From Halichondria panicea (taxonomy: Eukaryota > Porifera > Demospongiae > Suberitida > Halichondriidae): DNA of 64,000 bases. Location: NCBI RefSeq assembly GCF_963675165.1, contig NC_087382.1:1674001-1738000 (forward strand). The letters run 5' to 3'. This document shows positions 2,575 to 63,197 of the stretch, in pieces (within the stretch, counting starts at the first letter, position 1; each line of letters opens with the position of its first letter). Position numbers and translations under genes: made by a program. The notes under the pieces were generated by a model that saw only the letters and a list, made by a program, of their open reading frames with translations, searched no databases and had not been told where the DNA came from.

Positions 2575-3663
2575 CTAACTCTTATCATCGTCCTCGTCGA
2601 AATCAAACACTCGAAACAGGTCAACAACTCCGACTCCAATATCCATCATACAAGATATTACTTTACCTGGCAGACCGAGGTGTCCAACTCCCCATGATAA
2701 TAATTGCATGATTGTTTTGTATGTCGGTGTATCATTTGGAAGTTGAATTGCCATGGGGATTTGTCTTTTTTGAAATCCATCTTGATAGTATGCTGGTGGT
2801 GGTTCGATTGATGGGCTCATTTGCGGCATGGGGTAACTTACTGCTGCTGATTGAGGCTCATAAGCTGGAGAAAGCTGCTCTTGCTGAGCTCGTTTTTCAT
2901 TTTCAGTTTTGAACAAATCAAGACAACCTTGGATAATAGCAGGCTTACCATCTTCTTTTACCTTAACAAAACATGATATCCAGAAATTTGAGAACCAGTG
3001 GGATCCATCGGGGAGATATTGGAGCTCTGGAGTGTAATAGCCAGTTGGTACGAATGGTATTTTCTTCACAATTTGTGTTTTTACTTTTGCCTTGCTTCGC
3101 AAAACTTCTTGTAATTTCTTTGTCATCAACTTGAGCTTGTCCGTCATGGCTTTTTTCTTCTTCTCTGGATCGTTGAGACCAGTCTTTGGTCGAACGTTGT
3201 TTGCAAATGTGAGAACAAAAACAGCATTTTCCCAAAACCTCTCACCGAGAACCTGGGTAAACTCACAAATAGTGTCACAATCTTCTTGTGTAACACGGTT
3301 ATCAGTGAGCTTGGTGCAAAAGAGAACAAGATCTAGGTTATCGCTAACATCCACGATCTGTTGCATATACTCCTTTTCTTGGCCTTTTCCATCGTGAAGA
3401 CCAGGAGAGTCATAAAATATTGCCTTTACACCACCATACATCTCAGTTGGGATTGTTTCCACCTTGAAAGTACCAACTTCTATTGAGCTTTCAGGAGAAA
3501 CTTCATAGCCTACTAGTGCGTTTATTAGTGCAGATTTTCCTACACCAGTTTTTCCGATCACAAGTATTTCTAGGGTTGATTTTCCCATGCTGGTGGCAGC
3601 CTGTTGAGCCTCTTCTGACATGCTGGTAGCCTGTTGAGCCTCTTCTGACATACTGGTAGCCAT
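2575..3663 (-). CDS. AIG1/GIMAP-type GTPase
   Basis: Probable GTP-binding protein of the AIG1/GIMAP (IAN) group, 362 codons in one exon. Seen: a P-loop GKTGVGKS at residues 37-44, a switch II/G3-like DSPGLHDG, and a later TFANNV where the G4 base-recognition motif would sit. The family usually has THKD-like G4, so this is divergent. The N-terminus holds a perfect 10-residue duplication ATSMSEEAQQ before the G domain. The C-terminus is a proline-rich linker, then a hydrophobic/amphipathic stretch and an acidic tail DEDDD, which could associate with a membrane as in some GIMAPs (inference). I start at the ATG at 3663; the frame is open 12 codons further upstream but without an ATG. It is head-to-head with the related GTPase at 3835, sharing DL(V/I)LFC and FVLTF(A/G)NNV, so the pair arose by duplication. 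GIMAPs in animals and AIG1 in plants act in immunity or cell survival; the substrate beyond GTP is unknown. Confidence 0.85.
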   Translation of the reverse strand: MATSMSEEAQQATSMSEEAQQAATSMGKSTLEILVIGKTGVGKSALINALVGYEVSPESSIEVGTFKVETIPTEMYGGVKAIFYDSPGLHDGKGQEKEYMQQIVDVSDNLDLVLFCTKLTDNRVTQEDCDTICEFTQVLGERFWENAVFVLTFANNVRPKTGLNDPEKKKKAMTDKLKLMTKKLQEVLRSKAKVKTQIVKKIPFVPTGYYTPELQYLPDGSHWFSNFWISCFVKVKEDGKPAIIQGCLDLFKTENEKRAQQEQLSPAYEPQSAAVSYPMPQMSPSIEPPPAYYQDGFQKRQIPMAIQLPNDTPTYKTIMQLLSWGVGHLGLPGKVISCMMDIGVGVVDLFRVFDFDEDDDKS

Positions 3664-3834
3664 AATTGCAGTTCGACAACCAAGATTTTTGTGAACCAAC
3701 TGATCAAAAGCTTACTTTTACGATGTAATATTTTACATGGAATGTTTAGAACGTCCTGTGAAACAGGAAGCTTATTAAGCTTACATATCTTTGAATAGAC
3801 ACGCTTCAAATGCTCAGAAAAGTGTTGCGGAGAA
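3664..3834. promoter_or_regulatory. Shared divergent promoter region of two GTPases
   Basis: Only 171 bp separate the two start codons, so both genes must use overlapping promoter DNA or longer untranscribed leaders elsewhere. No consensus TATA box is obvious. The call rests on the arrangement only. Confidence 0.5.
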
Positions 3835-4998
3835 ATGGCATCTTTAAACAGTTCTACCTTCGCTTTCATGATTGTAGGAAAAACAGGAGTAGGAAAATCA
3901 TCAATCATCAACAGCGTTGCAGGCTCTGAAGTGGCTCCAGAAGGTGATGAGCTTGATACAGGGACATACTGCACTGAAAGCTACGAAATTGAGCACTGTG
4001 GAAGCAAAATTCAATTTTGGGATACTCCCGGATTGTTCGACACAACATCAGATTCTGACATGTACTTAAAACAAATCCAAGAAAAGTATGAACAGTGCGA
4101 TCTGATATTGTTTTGCTCAGATATGACAGACACAAGAGTTACAGCACAGGACAAACGTACAATTCATGCATTCACACAATTTCTTGGGACTGCTTTTTGG
4201 CACCGAGCAATCTTTGTTCTTACATTTGGAAATAATGTAGAGCACCCTCGACATGGGCGAACACCAGAATACTTCAAAGAGAAGCTAGAGGCTCTGAAGT
4301 CTAAGTATCGTGAAGTACTTATAGAAGCTGAGATTCCTTCGAGCATAGTCACAATGGTTCCTTTTATTCCAGCAGGATATCATCCTTGGTCACCTGACAA
4401 AGAAATGTACATTCTTCAAGATGGGAAAAACTGGATATCTACCTTCTTCATGGCATGTTTTGCTCGAGTGAAAAAATCCCAACAAAATCCTGTATTCCAA
4501 GCTCTTCCTAAGAGACAAGTACAATCGGCAAAGCCTGTTGCAAGAAAACCAACGCGTGATCAGTGCACATTCAATGCTAGCCACAGAAAACATACAAAGC
4601 AAGATTGGTTTGAGTGCAAGACTTGCTGGGGGGGTGTAAATTCTCAATTTGGTTGCTGCTGGCCCTGTGCACTCGACTGTCATAGGGGTCACCAGATAGT
4701 AGCACATCACAAGGTAGATGAAGGCAGAGGTGTTTTCTTTTGTGACTGTGGTCTTAACAATCACCAGCCTGCTGTCTGTACTTTTTATAGTACGAAACAA
4801 GAATTTCGATTGCAGCCATATTATAAATGTTTGTCATGCTTCAAAGACCCACGAGCAGGTGTGTGTTTTCAGTGTATGATTAACTGTCACCTTGGACACA
4901 ATACTAAATATGATGGGGTAAAGAACGCATTTTGTGATTGTGGCCTCCAGTATTGTGCTGTGAGATGTAAAATTCCTGAACCACGATCATATAAGTAG
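3835..4998 (+). CDS. AIG1/GIMAP-type GTPase fused to two UBR-type zinc boxes
   Basis: 387 codons, single exon, ATG at 3835. Residues 10-220 are an AIG1-type G domain: P-loop GKTGVGKS at 15-22, a threonine at 44 for switch I, DTPG at 63-66, and TFGNNV at the G4 position. After a basic linker (about 221-243) come two cysteine/histidine-rich modules, residues 244-315 and 315-378. Each has the spacing of a UBR box: a leading Cys, CxxC, CxxC, Cx(3)CHxGH, then FCDCG and a closing Cys. First box: FECKTC 260-264, DCHRGH 281-286, FFCDCG 301-306. Second: KCLSC 331-335, NCHLGH 350-355, FCDCG 366-370. UBR boxes bind N-degrons in UBR1/2/4/5 or are structural in UBR7 and FBXO11; the FCDCG signature is closest to those. 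No RING or HECT ligase domain is present, so any role in ubiquitin transfer would need a partner. The neighbouring paralogue lacks these boxes. Binding of N-termini is inference. Confidence 0.85.
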   Translation: MASLNSSTFAFMIVGKTGVGKSSIINSVAGSEVAPEGDELDTGTYCTESYEIEHCGSKIQFWDTPGLFDTTSDSDMYLKQIQEKYEQCDLILFCSDMTDTRVTAQDKRTIHAFTQFLGTAFWHRAIFVLTFGNNVEHPRHGRTPEYFKEKLEALKSKYREVLIEAEIPSSIVTMVPFIPAGYHPWSPDKEMYILQDGKNWISTFFMACFARVKKSQQNPVFQALPKRQVQSAKPVARKPTRDQCTFNASHRKHTKQDWFECKTCWGGVNSQFGCCWPCALDCHRGHQIVAHHKVDEGRGVFFCDCGLNNHQPAVCTFYSTKQEFRLQPYYKCLSCFKDPRAGVCFQCMINCHLGHNTKYDGVKNAFCDCGLQYCAVRCKIPEPRSYK

Positions 4999-5769: not shown

Positions 5770-6072
5770 AGTAAGAGTATTATGATAGAGAAGAGAGTAT
5801 CGAACGTAGGCATACTGTACATCAGATGTATGCGGAGAGTATATATAACGTGACTTCCTGCCATGTATCTGTCATGGGCTTGCACACTGACCAATCTATA
5901 AATATGGGTGATGTAATCTACTTTTTTGATAGATTACATCACCCACGCTTGGATTGGTCAGCGCAAACTCCAAGCCCATGACAGATACAGGAAGTCATAT
6001 TATACTCTCCGCATCCTGATGTACATGCAGTATGCCTATATACATTGATACTCTCTTCTCTATCATAATAAT
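5770..6072. repeat. Long imperfect palindrome (foldback element)
   Basis: The arms ~5775-5928 and ~5930-6070 are inverted copies centred on a TTTTTT loop, with the core GTGATGTAATCTA / TAGATTACATCAC. They run outward through CATGGGCTTG, GGAAGTCA, CTCTCCGCAT and TCTCTTCTCTATCATA. Arms are about 140 bp with small indels. Probably a non-autonomous DNA transposon. Confidence 0.75.
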
Positions 6073-6147
6073 ATTATACTTTAAACAATAGTGAATAGAA
6101 GGTGAACATCTATGGGCAGGCCATGAATTACATTTGTGGGCTCCTGC

Positions 6148-12076: not shown

Positions 12077-15000
12077 AGTCACGTTCGCAGTCTGTTCCAG
12101 TCCTACCCAAGAACTGGACTGTCGTTACTGACACAGAAACGTGAGTGAATATTGCACAGTTGAGTCACTAGCTTTATGAATGTGAGTCAACTTTAGGAAG
12201 AAGCCAGTCTACCAGAACAAGGCAGCAGGGGAAACTCTGTCCACACCACCTGGATGTAAGTGTGTGCTTGTGCTGTATCCAGTACATGGTTCTGTGTTTT
12301 ACCTCCTGTGTAGATCCCCTGCACCAAACCTCCGCACACCCTGATGTCACTTTTTACGACGAGCCTCAAGAGAAGGAGTTCACCTCCAGTGGTGGCCATG
12401 CCGACTTTGATAATGGTGTTCAAGTGACTGTTCCAGCTAATGCTGTCCCAGCAGGGACCTCTGTGGGCATTAAAGTCCAACCCAGCCTTGCCTCCAAAGA
12501 GGTATTTGTGATGCCTGAGGGCATTCAGTCTGCCAGTCCGTCCTACTTGATCTCTGGTGAAGGTCTAAACGGAGAGGTGACCCTGAGCATGGAGCATCAT
12601 GTACGAGTGTCCACCCAACAAGAAGCTGATGACCTCCTCTTTCTCCAAGCTGACTCGTCTCCCAAGAGATCTGGTTCTCATAGTGTCTATGAGTACCAGG
12701 AAATACCAGAGGGGAGGTCAAAGTTCACTCCTGGAGGGAACACTGGGAGACTGACGCTGGGCACACGGCTGAAGAACTTCTTCAAAATTGGACGGAAAAA
12801 TAGAGGTTAATACTTAGAAAAATAAATGACTTCCAATTGACCGATTATAATTATTATATGTACAGGCAACACAGACAGTAACCTCTACACTGTCAGAGTC
12901 TACCGGTCTCCTCCACAAACAACTGAGGACAGGATAGCCATCATTGTAGCCAGTCTCTGTGGGAGCTTATACGCTAAGGTAAGATGGCTCAATTGAAGTG
13001 TGCTCATTTTATGTATCTACAGTTTCTGGAGACGCTTGATACAGTGTTGATCCCACGAGACTATCCTGAAGTGTCTTCAAAGTCAATTGACAGGACAAGT
13101 CAAGGACCACTGACGTTTGTTGATATGTGTGCCACTCTCAACATTCCCCCAGTGCAGGGATGGTCTGTGGAACCAGACAAAGAATTGGTAAAATGTGAAG
13201 TTGGACATAGTATTACTCTTAAAATCACATTCTCTTCATTTTCAGATCTTGCGTAGTGGAGTGGATCAGCCTGAGGTAGAGAAGTTCAGACCTGAGGATC
13301 TCCACGACTACCCTCCCAGGATAATCTGCAGGTTCTTCCCTGAGGAGAATGCTCCCAAGAGAACCACCTTTACAATATCCTTGTCTGGACTACTGCCACT
13401 GGTCGAATTTTACGTATCATTGACAGCACCCACCCCCAAAGTTGCTGTGGATACTACTAAACTACAGGTATTCACATTTGTACAGTGTAGCCTCTTGAAA
13501 TGGTGTAGTGGGTACCTTTGACAAACTAAATTTTACTCCTAGATAGATTTGTCCTCTTTGTAGATTCTACTTGCACAGTTGTGTATAAGTTAATTAATGC
13601 ACACACAGTGTTTGTTTACAATGTACATTGTAGTTAAGTCTCATTCCAATTTGTTTAGGAGGCCACTGATGAGTTGAGAAGGTCTGCCCTGGCTGTGAGT
13701 GACACACAACTTGGCTCTACTGTGAAGAGTGTAGTGTCTCTGATGGAGAGAATGACTGCTGCTCTGAGGTACCACTCAATTGTCTAGTGGAAGTCTGATT
13801 ATCCTTTTTTTCTTCTGAAGGTCATCTTCTCTGAGTGAGCTGACAGGCCACACTGACTCCATACGGACAGAGATAGCGTCTGTCCTTGTAGTGACCAGGA
13901 GGGTTGTCCAGGAGTGCACAGTACAGAGCATCAGTGAGAACATGAGAGCCAGTCTCTCTAAGATGGAGACTTTATCTCACCAGCTTTGTCAAGTGACGAA
14001 GGTCAAACTCAGATACTGTCTAGGTGAGAACGTGTGTTTATGATATCAAGTGTTAGCTCTCATTCTCAATGGTACAGACCAGTCAGAGGAGACAGCTGCT
14101 CTTGTTGACCTGGTGGATAATGGAGCTAATCTGTTGAGAGTTGTAGACTGTCTACTCAGGGACATCCGCACACTCAGTGGAGTCAGTGGTGAGTTTACAT
14201 TGTCAGAGTCTGTGTATCGGTATCTACCTACCGTATAGCGGGTATATTTCTAAGGTATAAATTTTCGCGGAAATGCCTTTAGAAATTAAGGTTTTCACGG
14301 ATTTGATTTTCGTGAAATAGCAGCCTATTTGCAGCATGCATGCATACGATATTAAATTCTTGGTACATGCTTAATCCATGACAACCACGAACATGTATAC
14401 CCTCTATACGGTATTATGTTTTGATTTTAGATCAATGATACTCTGCTGCTCAACAGCAACCCCCCTCCCTCCGTTTCTTTCAGCTTCCATAACATGGCAG
14501 TTACAGTAGGATACCATGTTTGAATTTTCCAAGAGGGGCAAACCAAATCCAACAGGAGGGTGGCAAAAGCCTCCCTAATTTCCCCTTGAGATTAATATCC
14601 ACGTACAGTTTTTTGTCGAAATGTGCTGTTTTTTTTCTCCTCCCAAAACTTATAGCCAATGACTGTAGAGCTACAAAATGCATCTTTTAGTAGTTAAGTT
14701 ATGACCTCCTGAAAGAAGCTAGCGTAATAGCTAGGTGCCATATTCCTTTCCACTTCCACTGTATTGTACATACTACATGTACTGTACTTAGTGCTCCAGT
14801 GTGTGGGCGTATCATGCTCTAACCATTTCCTCTTTCACACAGATGTATTGTCATTGTATTGAACTGCATGCAATCCATGTACACCATTTCCCTTGCTGAC
14901 CCTCACCCTATCCACACTACAGGCCTGGCAGAGAGGATAGACATTGAACACCCTCTACTCAACAACAAGATTGACAGAAAAGAGTTTGCATATTTGGCCG

Positions 15001-15251
15001 CTTACTTCGACGACGTGATATTGTATTCTCAGGCATTGGAACTCACTCCTCCTGAGCAAGCTGATGTGAGGCGGTTTCTAGTTTTGTATGACACACGAAC
15101 GGCCATGATGGAGTGTTTGTCCCTGTGGCAAAAAAGAAAGCCTGCTACTACAACATACATCGCTCTTATTAAAGTACTCCAAAAGACAAGAAGAGATGAC
15201 ATCGCAAGTAAAGTGTATAATCATTGCCTAGAGAATAGTGAACTTACATAG
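9736..15251 (+). CDS. Ankyrin-ZU5-Death gene, copy A (exon 4 broken)
   Basis: My exons: 9736-9825, 10330-10428, 10976-11074, 11629-11736 (damaged), 12079-12140, 12197-12255, 12314-12805, 12866-12978, 13023-13187, 13246-13467, 13659-13768, 13821-14023, 14057-14188, 14923-15251. Exons 1-4 each encode one ankyrin repeat (TPLxxAAxxGHTDCV..LLSSGA). The 492-nt exon holds a ZU5 domain (SSGGHADFDNG, VTVPANAVPAGTSV). The next exons fit a UPA-like module and helices. The last exon is a Death domain (PATTTYIALIKVLQK) ending in TAG. Exon 4 has lost its splice donor through a deletion and reads into a stop after DKIL, giving a short ankyrin-only product of 131 residues if used. Because all ankyrin exons are phase 0, skipping exon 4 would restore a 724-residue frame. 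The donor after the ZU5 exon is weak (GTTAAT; copy B has GTGAAT). ANK-ZU5-UPA-Death combinations occur in ankyrins, and ZU5-UPA-Death in UNC5 and PIDD. A death/inflammatory adaptor role is inference. Confidence 0.75.
12007..12074. repeat. (C)n(CA)n microsatellite abutting a splice acceptor
   Basis: A C-run is followed by about 26 CA units, then TTAG and the start of exon 5. The CA tract takes the place of the pyrimidine tract. The same arrangement exists in copy B at 24310-24358 with a shorter CA run and an altered junction. Confidence 0.9.
14229..14412. mobile_element. MITE of the TACCGTATAGCG family in the last intron of copy A
   Basis: It starts TACCGTATAGCGGGTATATT and ends near CCTCTATACGGTA. 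The orthologous element sits at 26514-26702 in copy B, so this insertion predates the tandem duplication. Confidence 0.8.
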
Positions 15252-24360: not shown

Positions 24361-27300
24361 AGTCACGTCCGCAGTCTGTTCCAGTCCTACCCAAGAACTG
24401 GACTGTCGTTACTGACACAGAAACGTGAGTGAATATTGCACAGTTGAGTCACTAGCTTTATGAATGTGAGTCAACTTTAGGAAGAAGCCAGTCTACCAGA
24501 ACAAGGCAGCAGGGGAAACTCTGTCCACACCACCTGGATGTAAGTGTGTGCTTGTGCTGTATCCAGCACATGGTTCTGTGTTTTACCTCCTGTGTAGATC
24601 CCCTGCACCAAACCTCCGCACACCCTGATGTCACTTTTTACGACGAACCTGAAGAGAAGGAGTTCACCTCCAGTGGTGGCCATGCTGACTTTGACAATGG
24701 AGTTCAAGTGACTGTTCCAGCTAATGCTGTCCCAGCAGGGACCTCTGTGGGCATTAAAGTCCAACCCAGCCTTGCTTCCAATGACGTGTTTGTGATCCCT
24801 GAGGGCATTCAGTCTGCCAGTCCGTCCTACTTGATCTCTGGTGAAGGTCTAAACAGAGAGGTGACCCTGAGCATGGAGCATCATGTACGAGTGTCCACCC
24901 AACAAGAAGCTGATGACCTCCTCTTTCTCCAAGCTGACTCGTCTCCTAAGAGATCTGGATCAAAGAGTATATACCAGTACCAAGAGGTACAAAGAGGAAG
25001 GTCAGAGTTTACTCCTGGAGGGGACACCGGGAGACTGAGGCTGAGCACACGACTGAAGAACTTCTTTAAAATTGGGAGGAGAAAAAGAGGTGAATATTTA
25101 GATTTTAGAATGACTTTTGATTCAACATAATCTTTAATACATGTACAGGCAATACTGACTGTAACCTCTACACTGTCAGAGTCTACCGGTCTTCTCCACA
25201 CACAACTGGGGACAGGCTAGCCATCATTGTAGCCAGTCTCTGTGGGAGCTTATACGCTAAGGTAGGATTGCTCAATTGAAGTGTGCTCATTTTATGTACC
25301 TAAATCTACAGTTTCTAAAGAAACTTGATAACGTGATTATCCCACGAGACTATCCCAATGTGTCGAGAGAAGTGGCTGACAGGACGACTCAAGAATCACT
25401 GACGTTTGTTGATATGTGTGCCACTCTCAACATTCACCCAGTGCAGGGATGGTCTGTGGAACCAGACAAGAAATTGGTAAAACATGAAGTTGGACACGGT
25501 CTTAAAATCACATTCTTTTCATTTCTCAGATCTCACATAGGGAAGTGGATCAGCCTGAGGTGGAGAAGTTCAGACCTGAGGATCTCCACAACTACCCTCC
25601 CAGGATAATCTGCAGGCTCTTCCCTGAGGAGAATGCTCCCAAGAGAACCACCTGTACCATCTCCTTGTCTGGACTACTGCCACAGGTCGAATTTCACGTA
25701 TTATTAAAAGCACCCACACCTAAAGTTGCTGTGGACACTACTAAACTACAGGTATTCACGTTTGTACAGTGTAGCCTCTTGAAATGGTGTAGTGAGTACC
25801 TTTGGCAGACTAAATTTTACTCCTAGATAGATTTGTCCTCTTTGTAGATTCAACTTGCACAGTTGTGTATAAGTTAATTAATGCACACACAGTGTTTGTT
25901 TACAATGTACATTGTAGTTAAGTCTCATTCCAATTTGTTTAGGAGGCCACTGATGAGTTGAGAAGGTCTGCCCTGGCTGTGAATAACACACAACTTAGCT
26001 CTACTGTGAAGAGTGTAGTGTCTCTGATGGAGAGAATGACTGCTGCTCTGAGGTACCACTCAATTGTCTAGTGGAAGTCTGATTATCCTTTTTTTCTTCT
26101 GAAGGTCATCTTCTCTGAGTGAGCTGACAGGCCACACTGACTCCATACGGACAGAGATAGCGTCTGTCCTTGTAGTGACCAGGAGGGTTGTCCAGGAGTG
26201 CACAGTACAGAGCATCAGTGAGAACATGAGAGCCAGTCTCTCTAAGATGGAGACTTTATCTCACCAGCTTTGTCAAGTGACAAAGGTCAAACTCAGATAC
26301 TGTCTAGGTGAGAACGTGTGTTTATGATATCAAGTGTTAGCTCTCATTCTCAATGGTACAGACCAGTCAGAGGAGACAGCTGCTCTTGTTGACCTGGTGG
26401 ATAATGGAGCTAATCTGTTGAGAACTGTAGACTGTCTACTCAGGGACATCCGTACACTCAGTGGAGTCAGTGGTGAGTTTACATTGTCAGAGTCTGTGTA
26501 TCGAGTATCTACCTACCGTATAGCGGGTATAATTATTTCTAAGGTATAAATTTTCGCAGAAATGCCTTTAGAAATTAAGGTTTTCGCGGATTTGATTTTC
26601 GTGGAATAGCAGCCTATTTGCAGCATGCATGCATACGATATTAAATTCGCGGTACATGCTTAATCCATGACAACCACGAACATGTATACCCTCTATACGG
26701 TATTATGTTTTGATTTTAGATCAATGATACTCTGCTGCTCAACAGCAACCCCCCTCCCTCCGTTTCTTTCAGCTTCCATAACATGGCAGTTACAGTAGGA
26801 TACCATGTTTGAATTTTCCAAGAGGGGCAAACCAAATCCAACAGGAGGGTGGCAAAAGCCTCCCTAATTTCCCCTTGAGATTAATATCCACGTACAGTTT
26901 TTTGTCGAAATTTGCTGTTTTTTTTCTCCTCCCAAAACTTATAGCCAATGTATGTAGAGCTACAAAATGCATCTTTTAGTTTTGATGTAGTTAAGTTATG
27001 ACCTCCGGAAAGAAGCTAGCGTAATAGCTAGGTGCCATATTCCTTTCCACTTCCACTGTATTGTACATACTACATGTACTGTACTCAGTGCTCCAGTGTG
27101 TGGGCGTATCATGCTCTAACCATTTCCTCTTTCACACAGATGTATTGTCATTGTATTGAACTGCATGCAATCCATGTACACCATTTCCTTTGCTGACCCT
27201 CACCCTATCCACACTACAGGCCTGGCAGAGAGGATAGACATTGAACACCCTCTACTCAACAACAAGATTGACAGAAAAGAGTTCGCATATTTGGCCGCTT

Positions 27301-27548
27301 ACTTTGACGACGTGATATTGTACTCTCAGGCATTGGAACTCACTCCTCCTGAGCAAGCTGATGTGAGGCGGTTTCTAGTTTTGTATGACACACGAACGGC
27401 CATGATGGAGTGTTTGTCCCTGTGGCAAAAAAGAAAGCCTGCTACTACAACATACATCGCTCTTATTAAAGTACTCCAAAAGACAAGAAGAGATGACATC
27501 GCAAGTAAAGTGTATAAACATTGCCTAGAGAATAGTGAACTTACATAG
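18633..27548 (+). CDS. Ankyrin-ZU5-Death gene, copy B (intact)
   Basis: My exons: 18633-18722, 19226-19324, 20167-20265, 21381-21479, 23604-23702, 23972-24055, 24363-24424, 24481-24539, 24598-25089, 25149-25261, 25312-25476, 25530-25751, 25943-26052, 26105-26307, 26341-26472, 27220-27548. The lengths sum to 819 codons including TAG with all phases compatible. Residues 1-190 form six ankyrin repeats, one per exon. About 250-340 is a ZU5 domain (SSGGHADFDNGVQVTVPANA). About 390-560 resembles a UPA-like module (PPRIICRLFPEENAP). About 580-705 is helical (GSTVKSV-type, LSELTGHTDSIRTEI). About 730-812 is a Death domain (RTAMMECLSLW, TTTYIALIKVLQKTRRDDIA). It probably acts as a cytosolic adaptor that bridges receptors or membranes to death-fold signalling, as UNC5 and PIDD do (family knowledge; role here inferred). 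It is the intact sister of copy A with two more ankyrin exons. The region about 70 bp upstream of the ATG (AAGGAGGGGTCCAAACAAAG) is shared with copy A and with 39427-39470. Confidence 0.85.
19823..20060. mobile_element. MITE of the TACCGTATAGCG family with matched empty sites
   Basis: TACCGTATAGCGCGAAATTT to AAATTTCGCGCTATACGGTA. The paralogous introns at about 10880, 11530 and 21277 read GGAATAC(G/A)TTGC without the element, whereas here the element is flanked by TA on each side. This defines a TA target-site duplication and an element core of CCGTATAGCG...CGCTATACGG. Confidence 0.9.
20612..20765 (+). repeat. Partial copy of dispersed repeat R1
   Basis: AGCTGTGCCTGTTGTCTGGT through CACTGATAACTCGTCAGAAT matches 1949-2090 of the R1 copy at 1384-2335, same orientation, with scattered differences. 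It lies in an intron of copy B. Confidence 0.7.
21511..21935. repeat. Inverted duplication of intron sequence
   Basis: GTACGGTGGCCCTGAGGTAC at 21512 and following bases recur inverted at about 21845-21935. The same sequence is the standard 5' part of the ankyrin introns, so an intron end was copied in reverse into this intron. Confidence 0.65.
22130..23351. repeat. Nested foldback elements
   Basis: Outer arms: TAGCCTCGTTCTCAGGCTGA at 22130 and TCGGCCTGGGAACGAGGCTA at 23351, extending inward about 70 bp. Inner arms: TATGGGCAAGGGCGTATACA at about 22199 and TGTATACGCCCTTGATATGG at about 22835. Inside the inner element a 29-codon ORF begins MARTSSVKGKGKPSN (22422); I give it no function. Located in the intron between ankyrin exons 4 and 5 of copy B. 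Confidence 0.75.
24310..24358. repeat. (C)n(CA)n microsatellite abutting a splice acceptor
   Basis: Copy B counterpart of 12007-12074. The CA tract is shorter and runs straight into CACTCAG, the acceptor of exon 7. Confidence 0.9.
26514..26702. mobile_element. MITE of the TACCGTATAGCG family in the last intron of copy B
   Basis: Orthologous to 14229-14412, with a few substitutions. Confidence 0.8.
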
Positions 27549-35534: not shown

Positions 35535-36416
35535 TCAATGCAACTCGACTTCATAGATCTGGAACACCAGCGTGTCTTCATGCAGGTATGGTTCCAGTTC
35601 TGTGTGAGGAATGAATTTAATGTAACCCCACTCTCCTTTCCCCACTTCCCCATCTCTCACTCTCGTGCATACACTCTCAACCACGTTATCGTCATACATC
35701 ACTGAACCATTTTTGTGGTTCTGTCCGTGCTGATCTAGCAGTCGCAATGAAATAATCCCACGAAATGGCCATTTTAGATGATCGTCAAACTCTCCTCTCA
35801 TGAAGTGTAGAAACACAGACACGTGAGTCCCTTTTCCAAAACCGTTGCCGTTAGCAATCACCCTCAAGCATATCTTGTAGCCCTGTTGATTGGTGTATAC
35901 TGGGTTGGATGTCCATCGATCGCTGTCTCTCTTGTGATCACTGAATCGTGTCATATTGAATGTTGGGGGATCCACATCAGACACAGTTTTGTACTGAATG
36001 GCCGCACAATTACTTGATGTGATACTCTCTTCGAGGTGCATCATAGTGTCCTTGATTTCGTCAACAAAGTTTCGCTGCCATTTTTCTTGCTCTTTAAACA
36101 AGGTGGATTTGAAACTAGAATTCGTAAGCCATAAGGCCAGAAATGATCCAATGACCACGATCAATATCGACCCGAAAGCTATATTCCATCGCTGCTGATC
36201 ATTCTTCAATCGTTGCTGATCATTCTTCAATTGTTGCTGATCATTCTTCAACTCAGTCTTCAATTGGTGCAGATCATTCTTCAACTCTGCTCTCTGGTTA
36301 CTAATCGTTTGAATAATCTCCCTTTTCAGTGTCCTACTTGCTTCACAGTTTAGTGGGTGAATTCCAGTCTCTGGCTGTGCTTTCTGGAAACAGTCTTCCT
36401 CATGGTCAACGTCCAT
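35535..36416 (-). CDS. Membrane-anchored coiled-coil MATH (TRAF-like) domain protein
   Basis: 293 codons, one exon, ATG at 36416. Order: acidic start, coiled coil about 28-77 with three exact-phase heptads LKNDQQQ/LKNDQQR/LKNDQQR (56-76), one hydrophobic segment about 78-98 (FGSILIVVIGSFLALWLT), a short second helical stretch (100-130), then a MATH/TRAF-C domain about 153-291. MATH hallmarks seen: the SNPVYTNQQGYKICLRV strand pair, NGNGFGKGTHVSVF, MRGEFDD, LKWPFRG, LLDQ, and the closing DTLVFQIYEV. TRAFs use this fold to bind receptor tails and place RING/zinc fingers before a coiled coil; here there is no RING or zinc finger. Meprins are known membrane proteins with an extracellular MATH domain. 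The segment could be a signal anchor, placing MATH outside the cell, or the reverse; flanking charge does not decide. The heptads are encoded by a ~21-bp DNA tandem repeat (about 36190-36260). Confidence 0.85.
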   Translation of the reverse strand: MDVDHEEDCFQKAQPETGIHPLNCEASRTLKREIIQTISNQRAELKNDLHQLKTELKNDQQQLKNDQQRLKNDQQRWNIAFGSILIVVIGSFLALWLTNSSFKSTLFKEQEKWQRNFVDEIKDTMMHLEESITSSNCAAIQYKTVSDVDPPTFNMTRFSDHKRDSDRWTSNPVYTNQQGYKICLRVIANGNGFGKGTHVSVFLHFMRGEFDDHLKWPFRGIISLRLLDQHGQNHKNGSVMYDDNVVESVCTRVRDGEVGKGEWGYIKFIPHTELEPYLHEDTLVFQIYEVELH

Positions 36417-36781
36417 GGCTATTCTCTAATGTGGTTTTCTCGGGTTTGTTTACATTCTTCATACACCCGCTTACTCTCTTAGAGTTCGAGTGTGTCTACA
36501 TTCATTGCGATGTGTGTGAGTAACTTCCGGGCAGTTCCTAAATTATTCATAATGCCAAGCCACAATAATGTCATCAGCTAGCTACTAAACACATACAGCT
36601 CTCAAAATGACAACTGAACGATCTACTAGTAGCTACACGATAACAATAATAAACTAGATAGCTGGCTAGATAATCACTCCCAAAAATACTGATACTATAG
36701 AGCTAATAGCAGACAACTCAATTGAAATGAGGTTAAGTTCAAATCGTTATCCAAAATCGTTGCAGTAGGTCAGAGGGGGCT
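36417..36781. other. Intergenic, no gene seen
   Basis: Promoter side of the MATH gene and 3' side of the next minus-strand gene. No repeats or ORFs of note. Confidence 0.4.
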
Positions 36782-40622: not shown

Positions 40623-41738
40623 TTAAAATGGGCGAATAATGTTGTGTAAAAGTGTGCACAGACTACTTGGTTCTAAAAGTACATTATAACCTATCACTTT
40701 GAAATTCAAGTCTGATGCTCCATCCTTCAAATGAACACTGAGAATGCAATGAATCCCCCCATACACTTTGCTGAGAAGAAGTCCTTTCACTTTGAATTCT
40801 CTAAGGACATCCCTTCGTTTACCGATTTTTCTCAGGATTTTGCTGACCAAGAGGATATACAAACCTGAAAATACTTCCCCTAATTTCTCGGGGAAAGCTG
40901 AATCACTTATACCCTGCATTGGATTAGGTTGACGACTGTTTTCCACTAACCCCTCTTCTCCACTGCTTTCCTCTAACTCTAACTGTGTTGCATCACCTAA
41001 AGAGACCATTCTGTTCTTAGTGATCACAACATCTGGGGAGCCACAGAAAAGGAATTGACGTTTCGTAGCAATGTCTCCAATTTTGAGACACACCTTAAGC
41101 AAATCAGTGGTCCATGAGAGCCCCATAGTAGCTGTAAACGTAACTGTCCTATCGGGAAATAGCTTTTGAATGCAAGGTACAAGTCTCTTTGTCCAATCAT
41201 TTTCTTGCCAATTAAAAGCAAAGGAAGATATAGGAGTGACGTACGGTGTGCCTTCAGAGGATTCTTCACCTCGAATAATTTTCTCTAGTTTGGTAACTTC
41301 AGACTGGATGCCTGTATTACTTATGTGTGCCTTGTATTGACTCAAAACAGCTTTATTACCAACAAAGAAAGGCAACAAGCTTGCATGAGCTGAACACGTA
41401 CAATTGACTAAATCATCTTCGCATCTATCAACACGCACACAACCACTCAGCTGTGATAACGTAGTACTTGAACATGTTGCATGCTCGCTGTGTTCATACA
41501 CATATATATTTTTGTCGTCTAGTTTTACAAATGACCCATTCAACTTGAATCCTTTCTTTCCACCTACCAAATTTGAATTCAACTTCCGTATGTCTTGCTG
41601 TATGACCTTTCCTATTTCTTCACTAATATCCTGTCTGAAGATAGAAAATGGAATTCGACTCAAAACCGTATCAGATATTCTTGTTTTTAAATGACAGAAT
41701 GTAAGACCAAAGTAGAAAAACTCTACTTCCAAGCAAGA
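40623..41738 (-). CDS. Unknown protein, 3' exon, possible nuclease-like fold
   Basis: 372 codons, open from an acceptor (TTTTTTGCAG) at 41739 to TAA at 40623. The frame continues upstream without an ATG, so a 5' exon is missing from my model. Visible: FRQDISEEIGKVIQ, a cysteine-containing middle (SGCVRVDRC, CTCSAH), a QFLFCGSPDVVI segment and an acidic stretch (LELEESSGEEG). The G-S-PDVVI with preceding conserved helices is reminiscent of PD-(D/E)XK nucleases (GxPDxxx), but I cannot align the catalytic lysine with confidence. A fragment of a paralogue lies at 505-762, so the family is multicopy and may be transposon-related. Function not assigned. Confidence 0.6.
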   Translation of the reverse strand, partial: SCLEVEFFYFGLTFCHLKTRISDTVLSRIPFSIFRQDISEEIGKVIQQDIRKLNSNLVGGKKGFKLNGSFVKLDDKNIYVYEHSEHATCSSTTLSQLSGCVRVDRCEDDLVNCTCSAHASLLPFFVGNKAVLSQYKAHISNTGIQSEVTKLEKIIRGEESSEGTPYVTPISSFAFNWQENDWTKRLVPCIQKLFPDRTVTFTATMGLSWTTDLLKVCLKIGDIATKRQFLFCGSPDVVITKNRMVSLGDATQLELEESSGEEGLVENSRQPNPMQGISDSAFPEKLGEVFSGLYILLVSKILRKIGKRRDVLREFKVKGLLLSKVYGGIHCILSVHLKDGASDLNFKVIGYNVLLEPSSLCTLLHNIIRPF

Positions 41739-41969
41739 CTGCAAAAAAAAAAAACAATCACACACTTCATAATATAGTTATTACGTATAGACTCCACCCA
41801 CAGTACTGCCTATACCATCTTTCTTCTAATTACAGCGCCACTAAAAATTTTGATTAAATTTCCAGTGGCGCACAAATAGAACAAGAGAAAAAAAACAGTT
41901 TGGCGCTTAGCAATAGAACATACAGTACTATACTAGCTGTTTCTATACGAGGCTATGAGATCAGTTGTA

Positions 41970-61865: not shown

Positions 61866-61883
61866 TCTGTTGAATACAAGACG

Positions 61884-63197
61884 ATGGTCAAATGTGCATC
61901 CTCAATTTTAGATTGTATTAAAGCGTCGCCGAACAGCATTGGAACAGCAATGTTTGCAAAAGGCTACATCTCCGAGTATGTTAGAGATATTGTTGGTTCT
62001 ACGAGTGTATCCGGAGTCGACAAAGCACAACGGCTTTTGAATACCATAACTGATCGTGTAAAAACTGATCCCCTTGCTTACAATGGCTTTGTTGATATAA
62101 TCAAAAAGGAAGGCATATGGACATCTTGTTATTTAGATGAGTTTCAGAAAGCCTATGAGGAGCCTAGCAGTGAAGTACTGTTGGGAAATTGTTGCTCACA
62201 TGCTGTTGTGGCAGAGAAGTTAGAGTTGCCATCATCATACTTTCAGGTACGACAACAACATCACGGCTTGACTATATATCTATATATGGAACTTCAGTCA
62301 AAGTATATAATGTGTACAAAATTCTGAAATTGCAATGTCAGCGTGTTTGCAGCAATGTTTAACTATAGTCCAGCACGTGATGTTATCGTACCTCCTTTGG
62401 CGTAGTCATCTAAAATGCCGGTCAGTGTGTACCGTATACTGTAAATAAGGCCCCCTTCTCTCCCATAATTATAAAAGCACCATATAAATTTATCTGTTGT
62501 TCATACGCTATAATTATAGCCTTAAAAACATAATTATTAAAATCAGCGCTTTATAATCAGAAGAAATTTATTTTCCTGGATCCACCCTTCAGGCATTTGG
62601 GATTTGTGCCATACCTTTCTAGCTTGTTCGCAGGCATGCATAGCTAATTGTGTATAATCGGAAATAAATGATTGTTTCATAATTATCATGCAGGCAAGTT
62701 TCCCAATAGACGAGCTCCCAGAAACCAATCAAATTATGGATATTCAGCATGACAGTTACCATGGCGAAATCTCTGGAAAAGAAGCTGAATTCAGGCTAAA
62801 AGCATTCAAAACTCGAAGCTATCTTACATGCTACAGTGTAAGTCACGAGCAATATCTACTGTCCGTATACCAACCAGTACTAAGAGGGAACGAAATAAAA
62901 CATGAGATGAGAAACTTTGTGATAACTTTCAAGCACGATGACAAGAAAATCTATCGGATAACCGACAGAGAATTTAACAGCCTCGAAGAAATGCTTGAAA
63001 CCTATGAGAGGGAGAGTCTACACCATTCTCTCCCAAACATTGGAAGAATGGTATCTGAGGAAGAATATCTTCAATTGAGGCAACAGCAACGGCAAGGCCA
63101 TTCTCTCCTAAACATTGTATCTGAGGAAGAATATCTTCAATTGAGGCAACAGCAACAGCAACAGCAACAAGATTGTCCAAAATGCCTAATTTTATGA
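61884..63197 (+). CDS. CARD-SH2 protein with CaaX-like end
   Basis: Exons 61884-62246 and 62694-63197 join in phase 0 (TTTCAG|GTACGA ... ATGCAG|GCAAGT) to give 288 residues. Residues 1-95 have the CARD pattern: ILDCIKASP, MFAKGYISEYVRDIV, KAQRLLNTITDRVKTDPLAY, FVDIIKK. Residues 143-235 form an SH2 domain: YHGEIS, EAEFRL, a beta-B strand YLTCYS, YLLSVY, FVITF, YRITDREFNSLEEMLETYE. In the beta-B strand the invariant phosphate-binding arginine of FLVR is replaced by Cys167, so classical phosphotyrosine binding is doubtful. The tail has two SEEEYLQLRQQQ repeats with YxxL tyrosines, a Gln run, and ends CPKCLIL, matching a CaaX box with Leu (geranylgeranyl type). Likely a membrane-tethered adaptor for CARD signalling (inference). 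Start: first ATG in frame; a short upstream ORF precedes it. Confidence 0.85.

Follow-up and report, generated by a model that had tools for sequence, protein, structure and literature searches.

The sponge Halichondria panicea carries, in the 64,000-nucleotide stretch of contig NC_087382.1 analysed here (the window; positions 1,674,001 to 1,738,000), a gene in which a GTPase of the AIG1 family and two UBR boxes are encoded in one reading frame (the GTPase-UBR gene; Table 1). The listed open reading frame (ORF) and its translation run through 387 amino acids with no internal stop, both zf-UBR boxes lie in frame and C-terminal to the G domain and show the zinc-ligand pattern of such boxes, and the gene adjoins a paralogue on the opposite strand that has no boxes. 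This architecture had been proposed in a first-pass annotation made from the DNA letters alone and is borne out by Pfam, in which both AIG1 and zf-UBR score above their curated cut-offs, the latter on the tail of the protein.

Table 1. Features of the GTPase-UBR locus; positions are those of the window
Feature	Position	Strand	Evidence or remark
GTPase-UBR gene	3835..4998	+	single open frame, 387 codons
Sister GTPase gene, 362 aa, no UBR box	2575..3663	-	Pfam, tail scan, family comparison
Gap between the two start codons, 171 bp, probable shared promoter	3664..3834	.	ORF coordinates
AIG1/Toc34-type G domain, Pfam core residues 12-155	3868..4299	+	Pfam; Toc34/33 fold match reaches about residue 218
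P-loop GKTGVGKS, residues 15-22	3877..3900	+	sequence, family alignment
G3 motif DTPG, residues 63-66	4021..4032	+	sequence, family alignment
Arg101	4135..4137	+	near-invariant in family; aligns with Toc33 Arg130, dimer interface
UBR box 1, residues 244-306, to FCDCG end	4564..4752	+	Pfam, solved-chain matches; His253 where UBR4 has Phe1671
His310, candidate eleventh zinc ligand of box 1	4762..4764	+	spacing only
UBR box 2, residues 315-370, to FCDCG end	4777..4944	+	Pfam; Phe324, Phe366 and Asp368 correspond to UBR4 Phe1671, Phe1713 and Asp1715
Cys374, candidate eleventh zinc ligand of box 2	4954..4956	+	spacing only

For the G domain, AIG1 (PF04548) gives 62.6 bits (E 4.1e-17; curated cut-off 27) over positions 4-147 of the 212 in the profile. 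The P-loop and the DTPG motif are both intact, as annotated, and G15, G20, K21, S22, D63 and G66 are invariant in 30 aligned rows of the family described below. The initial label GIMAP/AIG1 needs a correction: the domain is AIG1 by Pfam, but the nearest solved chains are those of Toc34 and Toc33 and not of human GIMAPs, the Toc proteins ranking ahead of vertebrate GIMAPs, the only ones compared, in phmmer, in Foldseek and by VIA Z. With the chloroplast import GTPases Toc34 and Toc33 the protein has in common the G-domain sequence, the predicted fold and the aligned dimer-interface arginine; unlike them it is encoded by an animal gene, shows no hydrophobic C-terminal stretch and carries UBR boxes instead. 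It also scores far below the cut-off of the Toc34 family (NCBIfam TIGR00991; 48.3 bits against 421.55), which does not place it in that subgroup, and, pointing the other way from the solved-chain rankings, the AIG1 profile outscores the Toc34 profile (62.6 versus 48.3 bits). The Pfam AIG1 match is likewise common to the GIMAP/AIG1 immunity GTPases, from which the protein differs in that its G domain is nearer to Toc than to GIMAP among solved chains. In an AlphaFold prediction based on 30 members of the family, the G domain came out well and the tail poorly; the VIA comparison of this first model, whose rows mostly cover residues 1-220, is uninformative on the tail.

On the whole protein, zf-UBR (PF02207) scores 48.5 bits (E 9.2e-13; cut-off 25.2) in two stretches, and on box 2 alone 37.4 bits (E 2.7e-9). 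Box 2 matches solved UBR4-type boxes at E of about 1e-9 and FBXO11 at 6.8e-7. The best solved match of box 1 is chain 9hyf (E 1.1e-6), followed by plant BIG, human UBR4, FBXO11 and UBR5; the record of 9hyf is labelled 'UBR-type domain-containing protein', and its match makes it a UBR4 relative. Used as a query against the sponge genome, 9hyf finds box 2 (1.4e-9) and box 1 (3.8e-8) as its top two places. The annotated pair of Cys/His modules with UBR spacing, each ending in FCDCG (residues 302-306 and 366-370), is captured by a spacing pattern, C-x16-C-x2-C-x(8-10)-C-x2-C-x3-CH-x2-H-x(9-15)-FCDCG, which was composed after the protein had been seen and which occurs twice in it and not once in 200,000 shuffles of residues 239-387. 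In a hand alignment, all 10 mapped zinc-ligand positions of human UBR4 are present in each box, and spacing points to a candidate eleventh ligand after each FCDCG, these being putative ligands for three zinc ions per box. A recent origin of the pair by tandem duplication was considered and rejected, since in the hand alignment the two boxes share 19 of 59 positions with each other, versus 22-26 of 58-59 with three UBR4-type boxes, each being thus nearer to UBR4-type boxes than to its neighbour. Judged by the residues for N-terminus binding detailed below, both boxes are UBR4-type and not UBR1/UBR2-type.

The first-pass annotation had also called the gene a single exon, which holds for the frame, continuous through both parts, while the exon structure as such is read from DNA alone. 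The open frame might conceivably unite, by chance, two adjacent genes or exons that belong to separate genes, and the linker comprises only about 25 residues, so that an open frame across it is weak evidence; however, no stop codon separates the two parts, and the relatives of the gene speak for a single unit as well. The genome (131 Mb, 39 contigs) contains 33 places that match the 387-residue protein, itself included, and 30 of these, among them the GTPase-UBR gene, are free of stops within one frame, which indicates that intronless genes are usual in this GTPase family. We therefore regard a chance frame as highly improbable. The AIG1 profile has 50 matches in the genome (48 above cut-off); the GTPase profile MMR_HSR1 matches all 30 aligned members, and AIG1 matches 29 of them at E ≤ 0.01. 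No relatives turned up in prokaryotic genomes and viral contigs, which was to be expected and says nothing against their presence in animals.

Among the 25 family members whose tails were scanned (those with a tail of at least 19 residues), zf-UBR is found in the GTPase-UBR gene only. None of three zinc-finger-like patterns occurs in the 29 other members taken at full length, including the five without a tail of that length, L012, L021, L031, L032 and L034 (left out of the tail and pattern scans were L029, L033 and a short C1 match). Other Pfam matches in the 25 tails are few and weak, the commonest being Gly-zipper models (3 members each). A hydrophobic stretch, defined as a 19-residue mean of at least 1.5, is present in 20 of the 24 other tails and a GxxxGxxxG motif in 21, and their cysteine content is at most 5.3%; the tail of the GTPase-UBR protein has a hydrophobic maximum of 0.53, no GxxxGxxxG and 12% cysteine. 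The sister gene product is 44% identical to the GTPase-UBR protein and groups with it with a support of 100/96; Pfam detects no UBR box in the sister protein or in its tail, which has a hydrophobic maximum of 1.72 and no GxxxGxxxG. These comparisons suggest that, within a single pair of genes, a reader domain has likely taken the place of a membrane-type tail. The presence of zf-UBR in just one of the 25 scanned tails of this genome would also fit a recent private fusion that has no selected function or is decaying, but its frame and motifs are intact, and its two boxes both keep every mapped zinc ligand although 40 of their 59 aligned positions differ, a constraint that could, however, predate the fusion. 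On this evidence we consider a functionless fusion improbable.

Head-to-head arrangement recurs in the family. Taking 38 ORFs (all 33 protein matches and 5 AIG1-profile matches, weaker AIG1 rows being excluded), 16 pairs of neighbours lie less than 5 kb apart, 7 of them head-to-head, 8 in tandem and 1 tail-to-tail (7 versus 1, one-sided p 0.035). The head-to-head cases span positions 2575-4998 of the window and C1, C6, C8 and C9 of the genome, and a further such pair on C15, among the weaker AIG1 rows, lies outside the count. Two pairs, L015/L051 and L027/L031, look as though one ancestral pair had been duplicated as a whole; L015 groups with L031 as its sister (99/96), and L027 and L051 fall into one larger, loosely resolved group. 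Recurrent pairs of this kind would fit co-expressed hetero-partners.

In UBR4, Asp1715 and the oxygen of Phe1713 hold the N-terminal amine and Phe1671 together with Phe1713 holds the first side chain; in UBR2, Asp153 is the selector for arginine (PMC10687169). The hand alignment shows that the amine-gripping aspartate is kept in both boxes (Asp304 in box 1, Asp368 in box 2), as is the equivalent of Phe1713 (Phe302 and Phe366), and that the equivalent of Phe1671 is Phe324 in box 2 and is replaced by His253 in box 1. Box 2 thus has all three positions of a UBR4-kind N-recognin and box 1 two of the three. Because all three UBR4 positions are kept there, box 2 could bind N-termini in the manner of UBR4, and box 1 less surely so. 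The earlier description of the boxes as N-degron readers is therefore sustained in part: UBR4-type residues would make reading possible, chiefly in box 2, but the arginine selector of UBR1/UBR2 is missing. Alternatively, the boxes might be ordinary protein-binding zinc modules that read no N-termini and hold the GTPase to a single, constant partner, as would be in keeping with His253 in place of the UBR4 phenylalanine in box 1, with the lack of an Asp153 equivalent in both boxes, and with the description of many UBR-box proteins as not binding N-degrons (PMC4506424). The amine-gripping aspartate and its phenylalanine neighbour in both boxes, and the complete set of three positions in box 2, argue against simple docking, which we nevertheless hold to be quite possible and the main rival of the adaptor model set out below.

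In agreement with the first-pass annotation, no RING, HECT or other ubiquitin-transfer domain was matched by Pfam in the 387-residue protein at E ≤ 1. This speaks against the protein being a ubiquitin ligase itself, with RING-like boxes recruiting an E2, an explanation which could draw on the argument that the UBR box derives from a RING-like treble clef (PMC4506424) and which we rate as very improbable. Since no ligase domain was detected, an adaptor or sensor is likelier than a ubiquitin-transfer enzyme. Toc34/33 and GIMAPs dimerise in the GTP-bound state, and by analogy the G domain may pair when GTP-bound, either as a homodimer or together with its head-to-head sister. Such pairing would gather up to four UBR boxes, whereby weak single contacts could add up to firm client binding, probably through free N-termini and with box 2 first. 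The protein might hold its clients or pass them on, with UBR4 or a different E3 as a possible recipient, or might instead signal their presence in a cell-defence setting. Most likely, judging from sequence, the GTPase-UBR protein is a dimerising GTPase adaptor with a reader of protein ends or of proteins in place of a membrane-type tail. In its full form, i.e. a soluble AIG1/Toc34-type GTPase whose hydrophobic tail has been replaced by two UBR4-type boxes, taken jointly with the model of a dimer and client-binding adaptor, this proposal is tentative and falls a little short of an even chance. That the protein is more specifically a GTP-gated N-terminus sensor, in which G-domain pairing, perhaps with the sister, gathers UBR4-type boxes on protease-exposed ends outside any ligase, appears rather unlikely.

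Several observations weigh against the adaptor model. Box 1 taken alone has no Pfam match at E ≤ 1, and both AlphaFold models of the tail are of low confidence, the second job, run on the tail with 5 rows, giving a mean predicted local distance difference test score (pLDDT) of 38.5. The hydrophobic maximum is below 1.5 in 4 of the 24 other tails as well, so that loss of the membrane tail is not unique to this gene. The equivalent of UBR2 Asp153, which we take to be located immediately after FCDCG, is absent from both boxes, where leucine follows this motif. FBXO11, which box 2 resembles, is not known to bind N-degrons. Furthermore, with UBR4 from which the UBR domain had been deleted, obvious targets are reported not to have been enriched (PMC7618180).

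With regard to a possible donor of the boxes elsewhere in the genome, UBR-box exons were assigned by eye to UBR7 (L002), a UBR1/2-like gene (L003), FBXO11 (L004) and UBR5 (L066); a further candidate (L073) was rejected, being by eye a RING/B-box (TRIM-like) gene. UBR4 exons are present on C10, where the region at 5.27-5.59 Mb contains several copies of the UBR4 C-terminal (E3_UbLigase_R4) exons, some with stops inside the match. Near these exons the profile search detected no UBR box (4 matches at E ≤ 0.001, 7 at E ≤ 10), none of the 21 matches to the FCDCG pattern (10 in a reversed control) lies at 5.2-5.6 Mb of C10, and motif reading of 20 kb at the exons found no UBR box; a box split by introns or lying outside these 20 kb is possible, so that this does not amount to loss.

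The window contains several other features. A recent segmental duplication is suggested by two regions, 12172-15251 and 24456-27548, offset by about 12.3 kb: near-identical ORFs that match ZU5 recur in both, and so do ORFs whose Death match narrowly misses the cut-off. Downstream of the GTPase-UBR gene, at 5772-6076, lies an inverted repeat with 30-nt arms that are 93% complementary and with inner palindromic sequence recognised by eye, perhaps a foldback or miniature inverted-repeat transposable element (MITE). An ORF on the minus strand (35538-36425) ends in a TRAF-type MATH domain (Pfam 7.8e-29). Two minus-strand ORFs, 505-762 and 40623-41777, have by eye the segment REFK.KGLLLSKVYG in common and perhaps represent a repeated element or family. 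Ahead of its AIG1 GTPase domain, the family member L032 carries about 140 residues that by eye resemble 61866-62327 of the window, where Pfam gives no match; the latter region directly precedes an SH2-domain ORF (62658-63197). The ZU5, SH2, MATH and borderline Death matches of the window are in keeping with an animal as its source.

Among known proteins, UBR4 (BIG, p600) is the best solved match of both boxes, which keep its mapped zinc ligands and amine-binding aspartate, but it has one box in a ligase of about 5000 residues versus two on a 387-residue GTPase with no detected ligase domain. FBXO11 (UBR6) likewise has a UBR box without RING or HECT in the same chain, combined, however, with an F-box and beta-helix repeats and not with a GTPase. 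Described partners of UBR boxes are RING, HECT, ZZ, PHD, ClpS, F-box and some rarer domains; the words 'gtpase' and 'aig1' are absent from the main text of this survey, the full partner list of which sits in an additional figure (PMC4506424). In the snail Biomphalaria, AIGs are extended by death, kinase, ARM or Hint domains, UBR not being named in the main text of the paper, and the sponge Amphimedon is said to lack AIGs (PMC7053062); in the sponge D. avara, two AIG1-family genes are reported to be upregulated on symbiont exposure (PMC11229196). A full-text literature search of open-licence papers revealed no description of a UBR box combined with an AIG1/GIMAP GTPase, in line with the first-pass annotation, which was aware of no described protein linking UBR boxes to an immunity-type GTPase. 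Both parts are known and each joins varied partners; their join is new to the literature searched. For AIG1/GIMAP GTPases dimers are known, and few inputs. Boxes able to grip free protein ends would provide this family with a class of ligands that is defined and open to testing, and the GTPase-UBR protein would be a UBR-box protein outside ligases. If true, the reading as a sensor would mean that a GTPase of the immunity type is coupled to the sensing of proteolysis independently of any ligase.
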